A DNA stretch of 64,000 nt from the NCBI RefSeq assembly GCF_017310545.1, contig NZ_CP066203.1, positions 620,001-684,000 on the forward strand, read 5' to 3'. Numbering within the stretch: the first letter of the stretch is position 1; each line of letters begins with the position of its first letter. Of this stretch, positions 45,589 through 53,893 are shown in pieces. A program made the position numbers and the translations under genes. The DNA is from Methylacidimicrobium sp. B4 (GTDB lineage Bacteria; Verrucomicrobiota; Verrucomicrobiia; Methylacidiphilales; Methylacidiphilaceae). A model generated the notes under the pieces. The model had not been told where the DNA came from. It searched no databases and was given only the letters and a program-made list of their open reading frames with translations.

Positions 45589-45792
45589 TCCCTCTCCTCC
45601 CAATCGAGGCTCGAAACTCGGGCCCGACGCCTCCTGGCCCACTTCCCACCGGAAACCGAAGGAGAATTGCCAGGAATTAAGCTTGCCAGCAATCCGCTTC
45701 GGACGTAGACGAAGGGAATCGGTTCAATCGCCTCAAGCGTAGGAATGCTCCGAAGTCGTTGGACCAGAAAACCGTTTAAGGAGGGAAACGAC

Positions 45793-46017
45793 ATGAAGGA
45801 TCGTAGCATTGCGCTCCTGACGGCAGCCGCCTTCGCCGGCCTACTGGCGGGATCGGCCCTGCGCGCCAGCGGAGCGGATCTCACCACCGAATCGGGCAGC
45901 GCGCACGCCCAGATGACGGCGGAAAAGGGAAGCTGCGGACAGTGCAGCAGCAAGAAAGAGAAGAAGTCGAAGAAGAAGAAAAAGAGCAAAGAGGGAGAGC
46001 AGGGCACCCAGCAGTAG
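45793..46017 (+). CDS. Putative MNIO-modified RiPP precursor (atypical bufferin-like peptide)
   Basis: 74 residues with AAGGAGG nine nt before ATG 45793. The signal peptide-like part is MKDRSIALLTAAAFAGLLAG to about ASGADL. The remainder carries EKGSCGQCSSKKEKKSK, the only two cysteines of the peptide, in a CxxC, then a poly-Lys stretch ending EGEQGTQQ. It precedes a DUF692 (MNIO) gene and a DUF2063 gene, the arrangement of bufferin loci, whose precursors have a signal peptide and Cys that the MNIO converts to heterocycles that bind copper. Known precursors have more cysteines or EGKCG repeats, so this one is atypical; the role as precursor is inference. Confidence 0.6.
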   Translation: MKDRSIALLTAAAFAGLLAGSALRASGADLTTESGSAHAQMTAEKGSCGQCSSKKEKKSKKKKKSKEGEQGTQQ

Positions 46018-46055
46018 GCGGCCCGTCGGCTCGCCGCTCGAGGGTTCTTCCTGCG

Positions 46056-46085
46056 AAGGCAGGCGGGGCGACTCGCCTGCCTTTT
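46056..46085 (+). terminator. Intrinsic terminator or attenuator between precursor and MNIO genes
   Basis: AAGGCAGGCG (46056-46065) pairs perfectly with CGCCTGCCTT (46074-46083) around an 8-nt loop, followed by T residues to 46085. It would let the precursor be made in excess over the enzymes. Confidence 0.7.
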
Positions 46086-46119
46086 CCCTCCCCGGCGGAC
46101 TGCTCTCTGCCTGGCCGGC

Positions 46120-46977
46120 ATGCCTCTCAACCGCTTCAACGCCCACTCTCGATACGGCATCGGCGTCGGCCTCCGTCTGCCCCACTACGATCACATCCTG
46201 CGGGAGAAGCCGGTGGTCGGCTGGTTTGAGCTCCTCTCCGAGAATTTCTTGTCCGAGGGCGGGAGGCAGCGGGCCGTGCTCGACCAGATCCTCGAGCAAT
46301 ACCGCGTCGTTCTCCATGGCCTCGGGCTCTACTTCGGCTCCGCTGGCCCCCTCGATCGCGACCACCTCCGGAAGCTCAAGGCGCTCGTCCGCCGGACGGA
46401 GACTCCCTGGTTCTCGGACCATCTCTGCTGGGGGAGCGCGGACGGACGCTATAGCCACGACCTCCTTCCCCTGCCGTTTACGATGGCGACCGCCCGTCAT
46501 ACCGCGGCCAAGATCCGCCAGGCCGCAGACTTCCTGGAGGTTCCCCTCTCCGTGGAGAACATCAGCAGCTACATGGAGCTGAGAGCGTCCACCATGACCG
46601 AATGGGAGTTCCTCTCCGAGGTCGCGGAACAGGCCGACTGCGGGATCTTGCTCGATGTCAACAATATCTACGTCGTAAGCCAAAACCACGGCTTCGATCC
46701 CTACACCTACCTCGACCAGGTCCCGCGCGATCGCGTCGCCCAGATCCACATCGGGGGCCATAGCCGCCTCTCGACCCACCTTCTCGACACCCACGATCAG
46801 CCGGTCGCCGATCCGGTCTGGAAGCTCTACGCCCACGCAATCGGCCGATTCGGTTTCACCCCCACCCTTCTCGAGTGGGACGACCGCATCCCCCCTTTTG
46901 AAGAAGTCCATCGTGAAGCCCACAAAGCCGACCGCTTCCTCGCCTCCCTCGCCCCGACCCCTGCCCCGGGCGGATAG
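46120..46977 (+). CDS. DUF692/MNIO-family multinuclear iron oxidase
   Basis: 285 residues starting MPLNRFNAHSRYGIGVGLRL. It has the TIM-barrel metal motifs of DUF692: VVLHGLGLYFGS (His66), HLCWG (about 101-105), RYSHDLLPLPF (His113), PLSVENISSYM (Glu146), LLDVNNIYVVSQNHGFDP (Asp179, Asn181), and QIHIGGH (His210). These ligate two or three iron ions. MNIO enzymes modify cysteine in ribosomal peptides (MbnB, TglH, BufB). The neighbouring DUF2063 protein is the usual partner. Together with the upstream small peptide this is a complete minimal set of precursor, enzyme and partner. Confidence 0.9.
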   Translation: MPLNRFNAHSRYGIGVGLRLPHYDHILREKPVVGWFELLSENFLSEGGRQRAVLDQILEQYRVVLHGLGLYFGSAGPLDRDHLRKLKALVRRTETPWFSDHLCWGSADGRYSHDLLPLPFTMATARHTAAKIRQAADFLEVPLSVENISSYMELRASTMTEWEFLSEVAEQADCGILLDVNNIYVVSQNHGFDPYTYLDQVPRDRVAQIHIGGHSRLSTHLLDTHDQPVADPVWKLYAHAIGRFGFTPTLLEWDDRIPPFEEVHREAHKADRFLASLAPTPAPGG

Positions 46978-47806
46978 CCTCGAGGAGCTCCGCGAGCTCC
47001 AGCGCCTCCTCTTCTCCTGCCTCACCAGGCCGCTCGGCCCGGAGGATCGGGTGCAAGGAGAACGCAATCCAGAGGAAAGCCTGGTTGCGCTGGCGGCGCG
47101 GCTCATCCGTCCCTCGGACCGGCTCGCCCCCTTCGATCGGCTCGAGATCTACCATCGCCAATACTGGCTCCGGCTCCGCGAGGCCCTCTCGGAGGACTAT
47201 CCGGCCCTGGAGCGCCTGCTCGGCACCGAGCGCTTCCGCGAGCTCGCCCACGCCTATTTTCTCCACCATCCCCCCCGCTCCCCGATGCTCCGGGAGATCG
47301 GCTCCCGGCTCCCCCGCTTCCTCCGCGAGGAGCCCGATTGGGCGGCTCCCCTCCCGCACCGGCTCGTCGTCGACCTCGCCCGATTCGAATGGGCCAAGAT
47401 CTCGGCCTTCCACGCGCCCGAGCATCCGCTTCCTCGCCGGGAGGAGATGACCACGCCAGAGATCCGGCTCTTTCTCCAGCCCCACCTGAGCCTCCTCGAT
47501 CTCCGCTACCCGGTCGAAGCAGAGAGCCCGGAGGCGCTCTCCCCCGCCTCCGCTCCCCTCCCCAAGCCCCGCCGGGTCGTCGTCCACCGGCAGGGGGCAA
47601 CCGTCTACCACAAGCTTCTCCCGCCCGAGGCATTCTTCCTGCTGGGCTCCTTTGCCAAGGGGCTTTCGCTCCTCCAGGCCTGCGAGCGGACGGCCGGGAG
47701 GTTCCCTCGCCTCGCTCCGGAACGCGCCCGGGATTGGCTCCAGGAATGGTCCTCGCTCGGCTGGCTGACGACCTCTCCCTCCCCGCGGGCCTCCAAGACT
47801 TCTTGA
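46898..47806 (+). CDS. DUF2063 (BufC/HvfC-type) partner protein
   Basis: 302 residues. Overlaps the MNIO gene by 80 nt; the first in-frame ATG is at 46898 and I see no later start before the conserved part. The N-terminal DUF2063 helical domain reads LEELRELQRLLFSCL, then RLEIYHRQYWLRLREALSED and YPALERLLGTERFRELAHAY. A C-terminal winged domain contains AFFLLGSFAKGLSLLQACER. DUF2063 proteins bind the precursor and MNIO and are needed for modification. No signal peptide, so the maturation is cytoplasmic. Confidence 0.85.
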   Translation: MKKSIVKPTKPTASSPPSPRPLPRADSLEELRELQRLLFSCLTRPLGPEDRVQGERNPEESLVALAARLIRPSDRLAPFDRLEIYHRQYWLRLREALSEDYPALERLLGTERFRELAHAYFLHHPPRSPMLREIGSRLPRFLREEPDWAAPLPHRLVVDLARFEWAKISAFHAPEHPLPRREEMTTPEIRLFLQPHLSLLDLRYPVEAESPEALSPASAPLPKPRRVVVHRQGATVYHKLLPPEAFFLLGSFAKGLSLLQACERTAGRFPRLAPERARDWLQEWSSLGWLTTSPSPRASKTS

Positions 47807-47859: not shown

Positions 47860-48393
47860 ATGGAGCTTCCTGAGACTGTCTTGCCGCGCTGGGAATTCGG
47901 TCGGGGAACGGTGCAGAAGGCCCTCCTCCGCTTCTTCCGGATCGCGGTCGCCGCGGCCTTCAACCTGATCATCCTCCTGCTCCTCTTCGGCTTGGGCATC
48001 GAAATCGTCCGGAGCGTCTGGGAGCTCGCCCCGACGCTCGTCGGAGCCGCCCCGGCCTGGAGCTTCCGGAACCTGGTCGGGCGCACGCTTTCGCTCGTGG
48101 TGCTCCTCGAGCTCCTGCGCGCCTTCGTCGAGTACTTCCAGTTCGACCGGATTCGCCTCCATGTGCTCCTGGAGGCGGCGGCGGCCTTCGTCCTGCGGGA
48201 GCTGATGCTCTCGCTCTTCGACGAGAAGATCACCGGCATCAACGTCCTGATCTGGAGCGTCGCGGTCGTCGTCCTCGTCCTGGGGCGGACGGTGGCGCTC
48301 TTTTCCCCCCCGCTCCCCGGCGCCGCGCCGAAGCGGACGCTCCCGGGAACGCAGCCGGAGGAGCCGGAGGAAAAGCGGCCGCCGGCGAGCTAG
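47860..48393 (+). CDS. PsiE-family membrane protein
   Basis: 177 residues from ATG 47860. Four hydrophobic segments with the PsiE-like RIAVAAAFNLIILLLLFGLG, LSLVVLLELLRAFVEYFQFD, VLLEAAAAFVLRELMLSLFD and VLIWSVAVVVLVLGRTVALF. The Asp/Arg pattern in the middle is typical. Function in phosphate starvation is only named by association. It ends in a Pro-rich tail and its stop overlaps the convergent hypE stop by 4 nt. It could be the last gene of the MNIO run. Confidence 0.7.
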   Translation: MELPETVLPRWEFGRGTVQKALLRFFRIAVAAAFNLIILLLLFGLGIEIVRSVWELAPTLVGAAPAWSFRNLVGRTLSLVVLLELLRAFVEYFQFDRIRLHVLLEAAAAFVLRELMLSLFDEKITGINVLIWSVAVVVLVLGRTVALFSPPLPGAAPKRTLPGTQPEEPEEKRPPAS

Positions 48394-49427
48394 CAGATCC
48401 GCGGGAGCTGCTCCCCGGGGAGGAGCGGGAGCGGGCGCCTGCCGCCGATCGCGCTTCGCAGGAGCGTCTTGCCCGGGTGCTCGGCCGCCACCCGACCGAT
48501 GGCAGCGGCCTGCGGCCATCCGCTCTGCTGGATCTCGAGCAGCGCTTCCTCGGCGATCTCGGGCGCCACGACCGCAACGAAGCGCCCTTCGCAGGCCACA
48601 TAGAGGGGATCGAGCCCCAGGAGCTCGCAAGCGGAGCCGACCTCCTCTCCCACGGGAATGCGCGCTTCCTCGACCTCGATTCCCTTGCCCCCCTGCTGAG
48701 CCGCCTCGGCCAGCACGGTCGCCACTCCGCCCCGGGTCGCATCCCGCAGAAAGTGGATTCGGGATCCGAACCGGTCGAGCAGCCGGAGCACGGTCCGATG
48801 CAGCGGGGCGGTGTCGCTCTCGATCGCCGATTCGAAGGAGAGTCCTTCGCGCACCGAGAGGATCGCCACCCCATGGTCCCCCACCGGCCCATTGAGCAGG
48901 ATCCGGTCGCCCACCTCCATCCTCCGGGCGGAAATCGCGGCCTCCGGATGGAGATCGCCCACCCCGGTCGTATGGAGGAAGATCCGGTCGCCCTTGCCCC
49001 GCTCGACGACCTTGGTGTCCCCGGTCACGATCGCCACCGAGCAGTCGTTGGCCGCCTGGCCGATCGAGCAGAGCACCTTCCAGAGCTCGGCGATCGGAAG
49101 CCCCTCTTCCAGGATCAGGCCGAGCGCCAGATAACGGGGCCGGGCGCCGCACATCGCCAGGTCGTTGACCGTCCCGTGGACGGCGAGCGTTCCGATGTCC
49201 CCGCCCGGAAAGAAAAGGGGAGAGACGACGAAGCTGTCGGTCGTGATCGCGATCCGGCCCGCCGTAGAGACGATCGCCCCGTCATGCTGCTCGGCCAGCG
49301 CGGGATGGGAGAAGAGTCCGAAAAGGGGCTCGAGGAGCTTTTGCATCAGCATCCCCCCGCTCCCATGGCCGAGCTGGATCTCCGAGAAGTCGAGCTTCGG
49401 GAGCGGGCAGGAGAACGCGGGATTCAT
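48390..49427 (-). CDS. hypE: Hydrogenase maturation protein HypE
   Basis: 345 residues. [19 protein letters not shown] and AEQHDGAIV near the N-terminus, [17 protein letters not shown], and the essential C-terminal Cys in LPRIC. HypE dehydrates the carbamoyl group placed on this Cys by HypF to make the thiocyanate that becomes the Fe cyanide ligands. The ATG overlaps the hypD stop (ATGA). Cytoplasmic. Confidence 0.95.
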
Positions 49428-50548
49428 GGGGCAGAGGCTGCGGATTCTTTGGTCTCGGCGCCCGAGGCGACCCCGGCGAAATGGAAGTAGGCGGCGCAGG
49501 CTCCCTCCGAGGAGACCATCGGCGCCCCCTTGGGGGCGATCGGGGTGCACTCCTTCCCGAAGAGCGGGCATTGGGGCGGCTTGAGGATCCCCTTGAGGAT
49601 CTTTCCCGCCTGGCACTCCCCCGCTTCCTCGCTCCTTTCCGGATCGAGAGCAAACTTGACGCGCGCGTCGAAGGCCTTCCACTCGGAGCGCAGGTCGAGC
49701 CCGCTCCCCGGGATCGTTCCGATCCCCCTCCACTCCCGGTCGACTCGCGCGAAGATCCTCGTGAGCAGGGCTCGCGCCTCCGGATTCCCCTCCCGCCGGA
49801 CGACGCGACCGTAGGCGTTTTTCGCCTCCGCCCTTCCCTCTTCCAGAAGAATGACCAGCTCGAGGATCCCTTGGAGAAGGTCGAGCGGCTCAAAGCCCGT
49901 CACCACGATCGGGACCCGGTGGCGCGCCGCCAAAGCCTCGTACTCCTCGCAGCCCATCACCGTACAGACATGGCCCGCGGCCAAGAAGCCGTCGATCCGG
50001 CAGTCGGGGTCGGTCAAGAGCGCCTCCATGGCGGGCGGGACGAGCACATGGGCCGAAAGCAGAGAAAAGTTCCGCAGCCCCTCCCGGGCCGCATGGGCGA
50101 CCGCCAGGCCGTTGGCGGGGGCCGTCGTCTCGAAGCCGACCGCAAAGAAGACAACCTCTCTTCCGGGGTTCTCCCGGGCGATCCGAACCGCCTCGAGCGG
50201 AGAGTAGAGCATCCGGACGTCGGCTCCGCCGGCCTTGGCTTCCCGGAGGCTCTTCCGCGACCCGGGCACCCGGAGCATATCCCCGTAGGAGCAGAGGACG
50301 ACTCCCCGCTCCGCGAGCTCCACCGCCTGGTCGATCAGCCGCCGGGGCGTGACGCAGACGGGGCAGCCCGGTCCATGGACGAGCGTGATCGCCTGGGGGA
50401 GAAGGGAGAGGATCCCATACTTGACCAGGTTGTGGGTCTGGCCCCCGCAAACCTCCATGATCCGCCACGAACGGGTGAGTGGCTCCTCGATCTTGCCCAG
50501 CAGCCGGCGGACGAGCTCGGGATCGCGGTACTCGGAGAGCAGCTTCAT
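49424..50548 (-). CDS. hypD: Hydrogenase maturation protein HypD
   Basis: 374 residues. [34 protein letters not shown], and [14 protein letters not shown] and [17 protein letters not shown] are the HypD signature Cys motifs, with four C-terminal Cys ([21 protein letters not shown]) for the [4Fe-4S] cluster. HypD with HypC assembles the Fe(CN)2CO unit. Overlaps both hypC (ATGA at start) and hypE. Confidence 0.95.
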
Positions 50549-50841
50549 GGCGATCCCTCTTCTCCCGCTCCGGCAGCGGTCGCAGGCGCAGCTTCTGCCC
50601 CGAGCTCCTCGAGCTCCCCCATCTCCCGAAGCAGGGCGAAGGTCTTCTCCGCCTCGTCCGCATCGACCCGGGCGATCGCCAGCCCCACGTGGACCAGGAC
50701 ATAATCGCCCACCCGGGCCTCCGGCAGCAGCTCGAGGTTGACCTCCTTGACTACCCCGCCAAAGCTCGCCCTTCCCATCCGGAAGCCGTCCGGAAAGGGG
50801 GTGTAGATCTCCTTCAATTCCCCAGGAATCGCCAAGCACAT
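50545..50841 (-). CDS. hypC: Hydrogenase assembly chaperone HypC
   Basis: 98 residues beginning [12 protein letters not shown], with Cys2 that carries the iron. [20 protein letters not shown] and [17 protein letters not shown] complete the family pattern. The C-terminal tail of about 15 residues is Ala/Gly-rich and longer than usual. Overlaps hypD by 4 nt. Confidence 0.95.
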
Positions 50842-50844
50842 CGC

Positions 50845-53223
50845 CTAACTCCCTTCCTTGTGGAGCGCCGGGAGCGCCACCCTTCGCCCCGCCGGCACCC
50901 GGTTGTCCTCTTTGAGCTCTCCGTTCGCCCAGGCCGAGGCGATCATCTGGCCGAAGGAGATGCTCTCGTCGTTGGGCGAAAGGTCCCGGCAACTATAGAC
51001 CGAGAACCGCTCTCCCCACAAAGCCTCGATCAGGTCGACCAGAAGCCCGTTCTGGAAGACCCCCCCGGCGAGCGCCAGCTTCTGGCCGCCCACCGATTCG
51101 GCGACCCGCCCCGCAAGCTCGGCGAGCGAACGATGGAAGCGGAAGGCGATCTCCTCTGGGGGAGCACTGCGAGCCAGATCCCCGGCGATCCCTGCGCGCA
51201 GGCCCTCGAGGCTCACCACCCCTCCGGAGAGGAGCGGCAGCGGGTAGGGTTGCTCCTCCCTCCACCTCGCCACTCCACCGAGCGATCGCGCATAGCGGAG
51301 GGCCTTCGTCTCGAGCCGGCCCGCCGCCTCGCCCTCGTAGGAGGCGCGGTCGCAGAGGCCCAGGAGGCTGGCCACCCCGTCGAAGAGCCGACCGACGCTC
51401 GTCGTCCGAAAAAACCGGCCTTGTGCGAGAAGGCCCTGGTAGATCGGCCATTCGGCTGGCCGGAACCTCGCCTCCAACCGCTCCCGCATGGACGCGCAGG
51501 AGCCCCAGAGGGCGAGTGCCGAGAGGCGCGGCTCCCGGATCGCCTTCTCGCCCAGGAGCAGCGGAAACTCCTCCAGATGGGCCATCCGTTCCATCTGCCC
51601 TTCCCTCCAGAGGAAAAACTCGCCTCCCCAGATCGTCCCATCCTCGCCGAGCCCGGTCCCGTCCCAGACCGCGCCCAGAACCGGCTGCCGTTCCCAAAGG
51701 AGGGAGTGCTCCGCCAAGACCGCCCAGAAATGGGCCCGGTGGTGTTGCACCCTCTCCACGGGGAGCCCCCGCTCCCGCGCGCGGGCGAGGCCCTCCTCGA
51801 CCGAGGCGTAGCCGGGATGGAGATCGACCACGATCCGCCGGGGCTCGAAGGCGAGCAGCCGGCAGAGATGGGCGACCTGCCGGCGGAAGTTCTCCTGCGC
51901 CTCCCAGCTCTCGAGATCCCCCAGGTCCTGGGAGAGCGTGAGGTTCCCTTGGTGGGCCAGGGTGACGGTCGCCTTCCGCTGCGCCCCCATCGCGAGGATG
52001 GCCGCGTCCGGGTCGACCGCGAAGCCCCCGGGCAGGAAGAGCGGGGCAAAGCCTCGGGCCCGGCGGAGGAGAAGGGGCTTGGCCAAAAAAGGAGAAAGCC
52101 GGACCACCGAATCATCCAGGGCGCTCTCGATCCCCCGGTTGTGGCTCAGGACCGCATCGACGACGCTCCCCAGGGAACCCAGGAGCTCTTCCTCGGTCGC
52201 CAGGATCGGGGACTCCGAGAGGTTCGCGCTCGTCGCCACGACCGGACCCCTCAGCCGGTCGAGAAGCAGGGCAGGCAGCGGAGCCGAGGGGAGCATGATG
52301 CCCAGGGTCTCCTCTCCCGGAGCGACTCCGGCGGCGATCCGGCTCGGCCCCTCCCTTCGACCGAGGATCACGACCGGCTTCTCGCGGCAAAGGAGCCACC
52401 GCTCCTCTTCCGGGCCGACCCGGGCTTCCCTCCGGGCCGCCGCGAGGTCAGGAAAGAGGAGCGCAAAGGGCTTGGAGGGCCTCCGCTTCCGCCGGCGCAG
52501 CTCGGCGACCGCCCGCGGATCGGTCGCATCGACCAGCAGCAGGTAGCCCCCGACTCCCTTGAGCGCGACGATCTCCCCCCGTCCGATCCGCTGCGCCGCC
52601 TCCTCGATCGCCCCGCTTCCGGAGGCCAGCGGCGTCCCCCGCGGATCGAGCAGCTCGACCCTGACCCCGCAAGAGGGGCAGGAGTTGGTCTGGGAGTGGA
52701 AGCGCCGGTCGGCGGGGTCTCCATATTCCCGGGCGCATTCCGGACACATCCGGAAGGGCTCCATCGTCGTCCGCTCCCGGTCGTAGGGCAGCCCGCGGAG
52801 GATCGAGTAGCGGGGGCCGCATTCGGTGCAGGTGATGAAGGGATAGTGGAAGCGGCGGTTCCCCGGGTCGTTCATCTCCTGCCGGCAGCGCTCGCAGAGG
52901 TCGAGATCGGGAAGGAGCAGGACCGTCGCCCTCCCGACCCGGCGGCTCTCTCGGACCACGAACCCACCATCCTCGCCCAAGGGCGCCTCCTCGATCTCGG
53001 CCCGGGTCACCACGGCGATCGGCGGATAGTCCCGGAGCAGGGCTGCGCAAAAGCGATCGAGCGCCTCGACCTCCCCCTCCACCCGGATGTCGACCCCGTC
53101 GAGGCCGTTGCTCACCCAGCCTGCCAGCCCCGACTCGCGCGCCAGCCGGTAGACGAAGGGGCGGAAGCCGACTCCCTGGACCTTGCCGTCCAGATGGATC
53201 CGCCGCGCCGCCCGGGAGGTCAC
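50845..53223 (-). CDS. hypF: Carbamoyltransferase HypF
   Basis: 792 residues from GTG 53223; the start lies 1 nt after the stop of the nickel permease gene, so translation is coupled. Domains in order: acylphosphatase-like ([19 protein letters not shown]), two zinc motifs ([49 protein letters not shown]), a YrdC-like domain ([17 protein letters not shown]) and a Kae1-like domain ([26 protein letters not shown]). HypF makes carbamoyl-adenylate and loads HypE, the first step of cyanide ligand synthesis. The length is normal. Confidence 0.95.
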
Positions 53224-53224
53224 C

Positions 53225-53893
53225 CTAGATCCCTCCCGTCCAGAGCCAGAAGACGCCGATCCCGATGGCAAAAGCCCCGGTCGCCAGGCGGGCGGCACGA
53301 AAGCCGCGACTCCCGCGTGCGGCGGGAAGGAGCACCCATCTGCCCAGCACCCAGGAAAAGAGCGCCATCCCGAGGATCGCCCCCAGCCCGAAACCGGCGA
53401 TGTATCCCGCGGCCGCCACCCCATTCGGCAGGGCGAGCACCGGGAGGGCGGCGAGAAAATGGTGGCTGCCCGCCACGCCGTGGAGGAGCCCGATGCCAAG
53501 CGGGGCATGGGAGTGCCGGTGCGCCCCGCCCGCTTCCCGGTCGGAAGAGAGCGTTCCCTTCGGCTGAGCGACCGGAAAGGGGATCTGGCTCCGGAGAGCG
53601 CGCCGACAGGACCAGAGGCCGATCGCCACGAGCACGACGCCGACCAGCCGTTCGCCCCAGTGCGCGAGGGGTGCCGTCGGCAAGGCGTCCCGCAGCCAGA
53701 AGACGAGCAGGCTCAGGATCCAGACTCCGCCGCTGTGCCCGAGCCCCCAGGAAAGTCCCACCCGCCAGGCATCGCTCCGCCTCTCGATCGAGAGCGGCGC
53801 GATCGCCGCCAGGTGATCCGGCCCGGTGAGCGCATGCACGACTCCGGCAATGACGCCCGCGCCCGTAGCGGCGGCAACCAGCGAGTCGACCAT
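53225..53893 (-). CDS. Membrane metal transporter (UreH/NicO-like), probable nickel permease
   Basis: 222 residues, six or so membrane helices. The first repeat has VVHALTGPDHLAAIAPLSIE and GLSWGLGHSGGVWIL; a His-rich loop GGAHRHSHAPLGIGLLHGV follows; the second repeat shows GSHHFLAALPVLALPNG. The HxxxxDH pattern is that of UreH/NicO-type Ni/Co transporters. Its position inside the hyp operon, between hypB and hypF, supports nickel supply for the hydrogenase active site. Confidence 0.82.
   Translation of the reverse strand: MVDSLVAAATGAGVIAGVVHALTGPDHLAAIAPLSIERRSDAWRVGLSWGLGHSGGVWILSLLVFWLRDALPTAPLAHWGERLVGVVLVAIGLWSCRRALRSQIPFPVAQPKGTLSSDREAGGAHRHSHAPLGIGLLHGVAGSHHFLAALPVLALPNGVAAAGYIAGFGLGAILGMALFSWVLGRWVLLPAARGSRGFRAARLATGAFAIGIGVFWLWTGGI

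Follow-up and report, generated by a model that had tools for sequence, protein, structure and literature searches.

A probable two-cysteine variant of the bufferin family in the methanotroph genus Methylacidimicrobium

Introduction

Several families of exported peptides are modified by an MNIO enzyme together with a DUF2063 partner. In the characterised relatives of the system described here, this pair converts Cys into 5-thiooxazole with the loss of 4 H, and the products bind Cu(I) (PMC12452194, PMC13097082, PMC13419390, PMC12538549). The signal peptide doubles as the leader in the HvfBC and bufferin systems (PMC13419390), and bufferins protect cells under copper stress (PMC12452194). Two modified sites appear to be a plausible minimum, because bulbicupramide, a fragment with two thiooxazoles, binds Cu(I) (PMC12538549) and because FonBC acted on a substrate with two repeats but left one with a single repeat unmodified (PMC13097082). 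In an EGKCG background, FonBC tolerated only small residues after the Cys. The initial annotation of the DNA studied here had described published MNIO precursors as carrying several Cys or EGKCG repeats. This is too narrow: a survey records precursors that have a signal peptide and 1-18 Cys, a small CxxxxC family and CxxC precursors that lack signal peptides (PMC12452194), and a two-Cys precursor is therefore not a new kind as such.

The window analysed here, a stretch of 64,000 nucleotides from Methylacidimicrobium sp. B4, covers positions 620001-684000 of a complete 2.37-Mb genome. Its locus shares with the Buf2/BufA2 bufferins (Buf_6/12Cys, the Cys-Lys captophorins; NF050166) the bufA-bufB-bufC order, a Sec signal peptide with a homologous signal/leader, a BufB-type MNIO with the Asp that marks the Cys-Lys class, and a DUF2063 partner. 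It departs from them in having two Cys rather than six or twelve, no Cys-Lys, CxxC spacing, a longer Lys run and no adjoining DoxX gene. The Buf_EGKCG/oxazolin (HvfABC), fontiphorin (FonABC) and bulbicupramide (MmrABC) systems likewise combine MNIO, DUF2063 protein and exported Cys peptide, and their products contain thiooxazole and bind Cu(I), two-site units being sufficient; however, they are built on EGKCG repeats, and in FonB, Phe and an Arg pair take the place of the Asp and Arg-Leu of the Methylacidimicrobium MNIO. The adjamnio-7 CxxC and the CxxxxC precursors (PMC12452194) are also MNIO-linked and poor in Cys. Both are set apart by their descriptions: adjamnio-7 falls into a different MNIO cluster and is made without a signal peptide, and the CxxxxC precursors differ in spacing and often have a Lactamase_B_2 neighbour.

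Results

The precursor gene (Table 1) starts with ATG behind the ribosome-binding site AAGGAGG and encodes MKDRSIALLTAAAFAGLLAGSALRASGA followed by DLTTESGSAHAQMTAEKGSCGQCSSKKEKKSKKKKKSKEGEQGTQQ, with two Cys and a Lys-rich tail; by eye, the signal peptide is predicted to be cleaved after residue 28. Open reading frames and domain matches agree with the initial annotation in placing a 74-residue exported peptide with CGQC and a Lys-rich tail directly before an MNIO and a DUF2063 gene. Orthologues of 72-76 aa, each with exactly two Cys, a Lys-rich tail and SKEGE, occur in all seven sampled genomes of the genus. Both Cys are invariant, while the residues between them vary (G/N/S, then Q/H), so that the motif reads CGQC, CNQC, CSQC or CSHC. 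Pooled pN/pS over the seven species is 0.195 for the precursor and 0.237 for its mature part: this is a real gene under purifying selection. Because the Lys tail is of low complexity and the genome rich in G+C, one might have suspected a chance reading frame in front of an ordinary MNIO pair, but retention in 7/7 genomes at this pN/pS, the ribosome-binding site, the signal peptide and a profile match (see below) leave next to no room for that explanation.

Table 1. Coordinates of the features in the window
Feature	Position	Strand	Evidence
Upstream block CTTGCCAGCAATCCGCTTCGGACGTA, conserved; candidate operon promoter	45682..45707	+	Recurrence upstream of bufA
bufA-like precursor gene, 74 aa, two Cys	45793..46017	+	Conserved in 7/7 Methylacidimicrobium genomes; profile match
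Sec signal peptide / RiPP leader MKDRSIALLTAAAFAGLLAGSALRASGA	45793..45876	+	Match to signal-only profile from outside relatives
CGQC, putative sites of modification	45934..45945	+	No variation of either Cys codon among 7 species
Lys-rich tail KKEKKSKKKKKSK	45952..45990	+	Sequence, 7-species comparison
bufA-bufB intergenic hairpin, probable leaky terminator/attenuator	46057..46082	+	13-pair stem, conservation
MNIO (DUF692, BufB-type), 285 aa	46120..46977	+	PF05114, NCBIfam MNIO_BufB, 3BWW
DUF2063 (PME type 1 / RRE) partner, overlaps MNIO gene	46913..47806	+	PF09836; model matches
PsiE-family membrane protein, likely fourth operon gene in the genus	47860..48393	+	PF06146, E 1e-7

Two database labels for the peptide, HPE1_fam_CxxC (NCBIfam; E 2e-4, 21.5 bits, cut-off 45) and Pfam WCOB (E 0.15), were rejected as low-complexity or signal-peptide matches. 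The peptide matches neither the NF050166 Cu_RiPP_BufA2 model nor Buf1 (DUF2282, PF10048), which is also without a match in 13 genomes of the family. Instead of the six or twelve Cys with Cys-Lys motifs that define BufA2, it has two Cys, followed by G/N/S and by S in 7/7 species. It nevertheless displays the broader traits of a bufferin-type precursor, namely a Sec signal peptide, Cys, the bufABC order and homology to bufferin precursors.

The MNIO matches PF05114 (349.8 bits) and NCBIfam MNIO_BufB (337.2 bits, above the cut-off of 310). Among solved structures, 3BWW comes nearest in sequence (E 3e-59; TM 0.76 by model), and the top structural matches of the predicted MNIO model are 3BWW, TglH and MbnB. 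A methanobactin-type enzyme is not what we find: the MbnB match reaches 33.5 bits against a cut-off of 325, and the partner is a DUF2063 protein. The MNIO is 97% identical to its counterpart in strain LP2A, and those of Methylacidimicrobium tartarophylax and M. cyclopophantes follow at 81-84%, in keeping with a Methylacidimicrobium host. The partner, whose start is most likely the GTG at 46913 common to the genus and possibly the TTG at 46898, scores 76 bits with PF09836 and 72 bits with NCBIfam HvfC, where the cut-off of 142 is not reached. Sequence and profile searches of the PDB with this protein gave nothing relevant; its predicted model did match, being closest to the MNIO partners 3DEE (E 2.7e-6) and TglI (E 5e-6) and weakly similar to RRE-leader complexes.

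How is the peptide related to known precursors? At about 100 related loci in Verrucomicrobiota and Acidobacteriota, the MNIO gene is directly preceded by the gene for an exported peptide, whose signal peptide is of the AAAxAGLxxGS type and whose Cys, usually six in number, follow the pattern CKGKNSCKGKGGCKSGDNGCKGKNSCKGKGGC, with CKGKxxCKGKGGCK repeats. This family is of the BufA2 (Cys-Lys) type, because one six-Cys member is recognised by the NCBIfam BufA2 model at E 3e-9, though its 36.8 bits stay under the cut-off of 60. A profile of 93 BufA2-like precursors from outside the family was searched against 1595 open reading frames of the window and the family loci; it retrieved all Methylacidimicrobium and Methylacidiphilum peptides and nothing else below E 2, the window peptide scoring E 1.6e-7 and the next window frame E 2.5, with statistics that are limited by the G+C-rich, lysine-rich sequence. 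When 13 whole genomes were searched with a 20-row profile of outside relatives, each of the 11 MNIO-bearing genomes gave one match, always in the gene adjoining the MNIO gene, and the two family genomes without MNIO gave none. A signal-only profile of outside relatives picked out the window peptide (E 9.5e-6), with all other window frames at E 8 or higher. Judged by these comparisons, the Methylacidimicrobium peptide is a homologue of the BufA2 (Cys-Lys) class of bufferin precursors found in Verrucomicrobiota and Acidobacteriota. Together with the BufB-type MNIO and the DUF2063 partner, this bears out the view of the initial annotation that the locus is bufferin-like.

Precursor, MNIO and DUF2063 partner are all present in 11 and all absent in 2 of the 13 family genomes (G008 and the Methylacidiphilum genome G012), MNIO and partner each being single copy. 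The initial annotation had taken the peptide to be the substrate of the MNIO, and this is very probably so, because the peptide is homologous to BufA2-type precursors, is present in one copy per genome and co-occurs strictly with the enzyme pair. Conceivably, the peptide might be an unmodified dithiol or a residual precursor and the MNIO might work in trans on another substrate, since the known Cys-flanking motifs have been lost and certain MNIO operons lack a recognisable precursor (PMC12452194). We regard this as very unlikely in view of the single precursor-type gene per genome, the lack of any BufA2/DUF2282 match above cut-off elsewhere in the genus genomes, the purifying selection with both Cys invariant, and the conserved hairpin and gene order.

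The core of the peptide has been remodelled. Outside Methylacidimicrobium, the precursors have 3-11 Cys, most often six (58 of 101 loci), the exception being an apparently frameshifted precursor with two (L056); Methylacidimicrobium always has two, and the initial annotation was right to call a two-cysteine precursor unusual, exceptional as it is among about 100 close relatives. Lys follows Cys in about 470 of about 620 cases at the other loci and in none in Methylacidimicrobium, whose peptide contains neither a Cys-Lys nor a Lys-Cys pair. Split profiles matched Methylacidimicrobium via the signal peptide and Methylacidiphilum via the mature part, where the best E value is about 5e-4, which argues that Methylacidimicrobium kept the leader and rebuilt the core. 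Because the mature-only profile of outside relatives showed similarity for Methylacidiphilum and none for Methylacidimicrobium, homology of the latter rests mostly on signal/leader and gene position. The precursor of the sister genus Methylacidiphilum, SCKGKQSCKGKKK, is an orthologue by position, enzyme tree and profile and shares the Lys-rich tail; it differs in having three or four Cys, two of them in CKGK and one or two C-terminal, and in lacking a conserved strong hairpin before the MNIO gene. Its core, SCKGKQSCKGKKKGKKGEK, looks like an intermediate between the CKGK-repeat relatives and a single CxxC. The initial annotation had held that related genomes with the MNIO/DUF2063 pair and without this peptide would speak against it. 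Half of this was found: related genera pair MNIO and DUF2063 protein with a Cys-richer homologue, and the peptide is therefore best described as a reduced version of a known precursor.

Two loci of another Verrucomicrobiota family (L122 and L124, f11) have divergent MNIO-adjoining precursors, L124 with LAGKDKDKDDCPGKDKEKKEET repeats of one Cys each and L122 with CSTKEGCSTKEKK; in their MNIOs, Asp255 is replaced by Gly or Ala. Two relatives from the same order (L002 and L004, family f3) have CSGKDGCPAKK repeats with almost no Cys-Lys and an MNIO with Ala at the Asp255 site.

The Lys-rich tail had also been read as a sign of a different product. Mature net charge averages +4.9 in Methylacidimicrobium and +6.6 in the family, Lys content is 25% against 20%, and only the longest stretch of Lys is extended (4-7 residues against 1-3). 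In charge and composition, the tail is ordinary for the family. The proposal of a different modification substrate thus holds up in part: the Cys-flanking residues fit neither published motif class, but Lys-richness is no mark of a different product.

Does the enzyme mirror these changes? H66, H101, E146, D179, N182, H210, D223, H225, E252 and D254 are invariant wherever aligned (112 sequences); candidate iron ligands and a putative catalytic Asp254 can be assigned among the MNIO residues by analogy to HvfB, MbnB and FonB. Asp255 of Cys-Lys MNIOs has been modelled to contact the substrate Lys (PMC13097082). Methylacidimicrobium retains this class marker though its substrate has lost that Lys, and a Lys three residues past the second Cys (CSSK/CSGK) may act as a stand-in. 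As a tracker of Cys-Lys content, Asp255 was rejected: Ala or Gly is found in the Cys-Lys-poor L002, L004, L122 and L124 and also in the Cys-Lys-rich L048, L085 and L121, and the correlation is weak because of the latter three and because Methylacidimicrobium keeps Asp without any Cys-Lys.

Fifteen MNIO positions are nearly exclusive to Methylacidimicrobium, including HIGGH between two conserved His, which reads HIAGH in the other 104 aligned sequences. In a quick tree, the MNIOs of Methylacidimicrobium and Methylacidiphilum are sisters (SH-aLRT 91) with stems of 0.58 each, which points to vertical descent with faster change in both genera. One might propose from the long genus stem, the genus-exclusive changes, notably HIGGH, and the lack of Lys after any Cys that the core has drifted towards another modification or the modification of one Cys only, and that its product has a different soft metal as partner or another mode of action. 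We consider such a change improbable: the candidate ligands and catalytic residues are unaltered, Methylacidiphilum has an equally long stem yet kept CKGK, and the MNIO changes may be neutral, because they belong to a single lineage.

The initial annotation had noted a hairpin between the first two genes, and a 13-pair stem is indeed found there in 7/7 genus genomes, with GGCAGGCGG and CGCCTGCC flanking a loop and followed by a T-rich, C-interrupted tail; there is one G-U variant (L017). By stem length, the hairpin beats 99% of dinucleotide shuffles, and it is conserved while its flanks diverge, at a single site in the genome of the window. The whole bufA-bufB gap folds no better than shuffled sequence (z -1.25); the signal lies in the stem and its conservation. 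A simple terminator scan did not detect the hairpin, because the T-tract in the window is short and interrupted by C. In a survey of about 96 BufA2-type operons of Verrucomicrobiota and Acidobacteriota (L002-L123), stems of at least 10 pairs occur in 56 of 96 bufA-bufB gaps and in 2 of 96 control segments of equal length within MNIO genes; 27 of these gap stems, about half, are followed by a T-tract (at least 5 T in 10). The simplest reading is a leaky terminator that probably favours precursor over enzyme, and such a dosage device between precursor and enzyme seems general for BufA2-type operons.

Gene order in the genus is dtd / bufABC - PsiE-family gene / hypE-D-C-F. The hydrogenase maturation genes hypE, hypD, hypC and hypF (48390-53508, minus strand) are convergent to the buf operon. 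Upstream, CTTGCCAGC and most of the block CTTGCCAGCAATCCGCTTCGGACGTA recur before bufA in the seven genus genomes, the pattern being single in the genome, and the block is a candidate operon promoter. It has the form CTTGCCAGC-N13-CGTA, in which CGTA is reminiscent of an ECF-type -10 element; a scan for the sigma-70 consensus found no promoter. DoxX is the usual membrane partner in bufferin clusters. Neither DoxX, which is encoded elsewhere, nor a copper gene adjoins the Methylacidimicrobium operon. The PsiE-family gene lies directly 3' of bufC on the same strand at every genus locus with enough sequence and is replaced by an ArsC/Spx-like gene at Methylacidiphilum loci; possibly, its product is functionally linked to bufABC as a substitute for DoxX.

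Discussion

Methylacidimicrobium probably harbours a lineage-specific, two-cysteine variant of the bufferins, a widespread family of peptides that are modified by an enzyme and probably bind copper. We envision a reduced bufferin (captophorin) operon, an account to which we assign a probability of roughly 0.6. In this scenario, the DUF2063 partner would bind the conserved signal/leader of the 74-residue precursor, and the iron-dependent MNIO would turn both Cys of the single CxxC into 5-thiooxazoles, with an expected loss of 4 H per Cys or about 8.06 Da in all. The modified peptide would then be exported by the Sec system, and its two thiooxazole thiolates would bind Cu(I), about one per peptide. 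In this way, copper would be buffered in an acidophilic methanotroph that depends on pMMO. Owing to a leaky terminator 3' of bufA, far more precursor than enzyme would be made. The residues that follow the Cys here (Gly/Asn/Ser, then Ser) would fit the tolerance of FonBC in part.

Alternatively, the same modification might serve copper acquisition or delivery, in a chalkophore-like manner for pMMO, rather than protection from copper excess. Verrucomicrobial methanotrophs depend on a copper-dependent pMMO and lack sMMO (PMC8498564, PMC7907005), and the search for a methanobactin-type MNIO gave only a distant MbnB match, so that another copper ligand could serve uptake. We nonetheless deem acquisition unlikely, given that homologues are widespread in non-methanotrophic Verrucomicrobiota and Acidobacteriota, that characterised relatives respond to excess copper and that the Methylacidiphilum genome G012 does without the whole operon.

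Building on the reduced bufferin operon, we tentatively suggest, as a possibility that we rate as rather doubtful, a minimal one-metal bufferin: an MNIO with a remodelled HIGGH loop in its active site, no longer in need of contact with a Cys-Lys pair, would turn the CxxC into neighbouring thiooxazoles, two in number, and stoichiometry or metal preference would be unlike those of characterised bufferins.

A search of a literature library found no paper naming MNIO together with Verrucomicrobia. Our comparison now documents that, throughout a genus of methanotrophs, a bufferin with CKGK repeats has been reduced to one CxxC lacking Cys-Lys, accompanied by changes in the enzyme. New traits are that no Cys-Lys pair is left, that the Cys are spaced as CxxC, that the run of Lys is longer and that the enzyme has the genus-specific HIGGH. 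The path of the core can be followed from the CKGK repeats of relatives via SCKGKQSCKGK in Methylacidiphilum to the single CxxC, with leader and enzyme still recognisable. It thus represents a natural experiment on how few modified Cys a bufferin can carry and on how an MNIO changes its substrate rules. A 46-residue product with two sites should be far simpler to characterise than bufferins with 6-12 Cys and offers a convenient minimal test case, and it would tie extremely acidophilic methanotrophs that depend on pMMO copper to the bufferin copper system.
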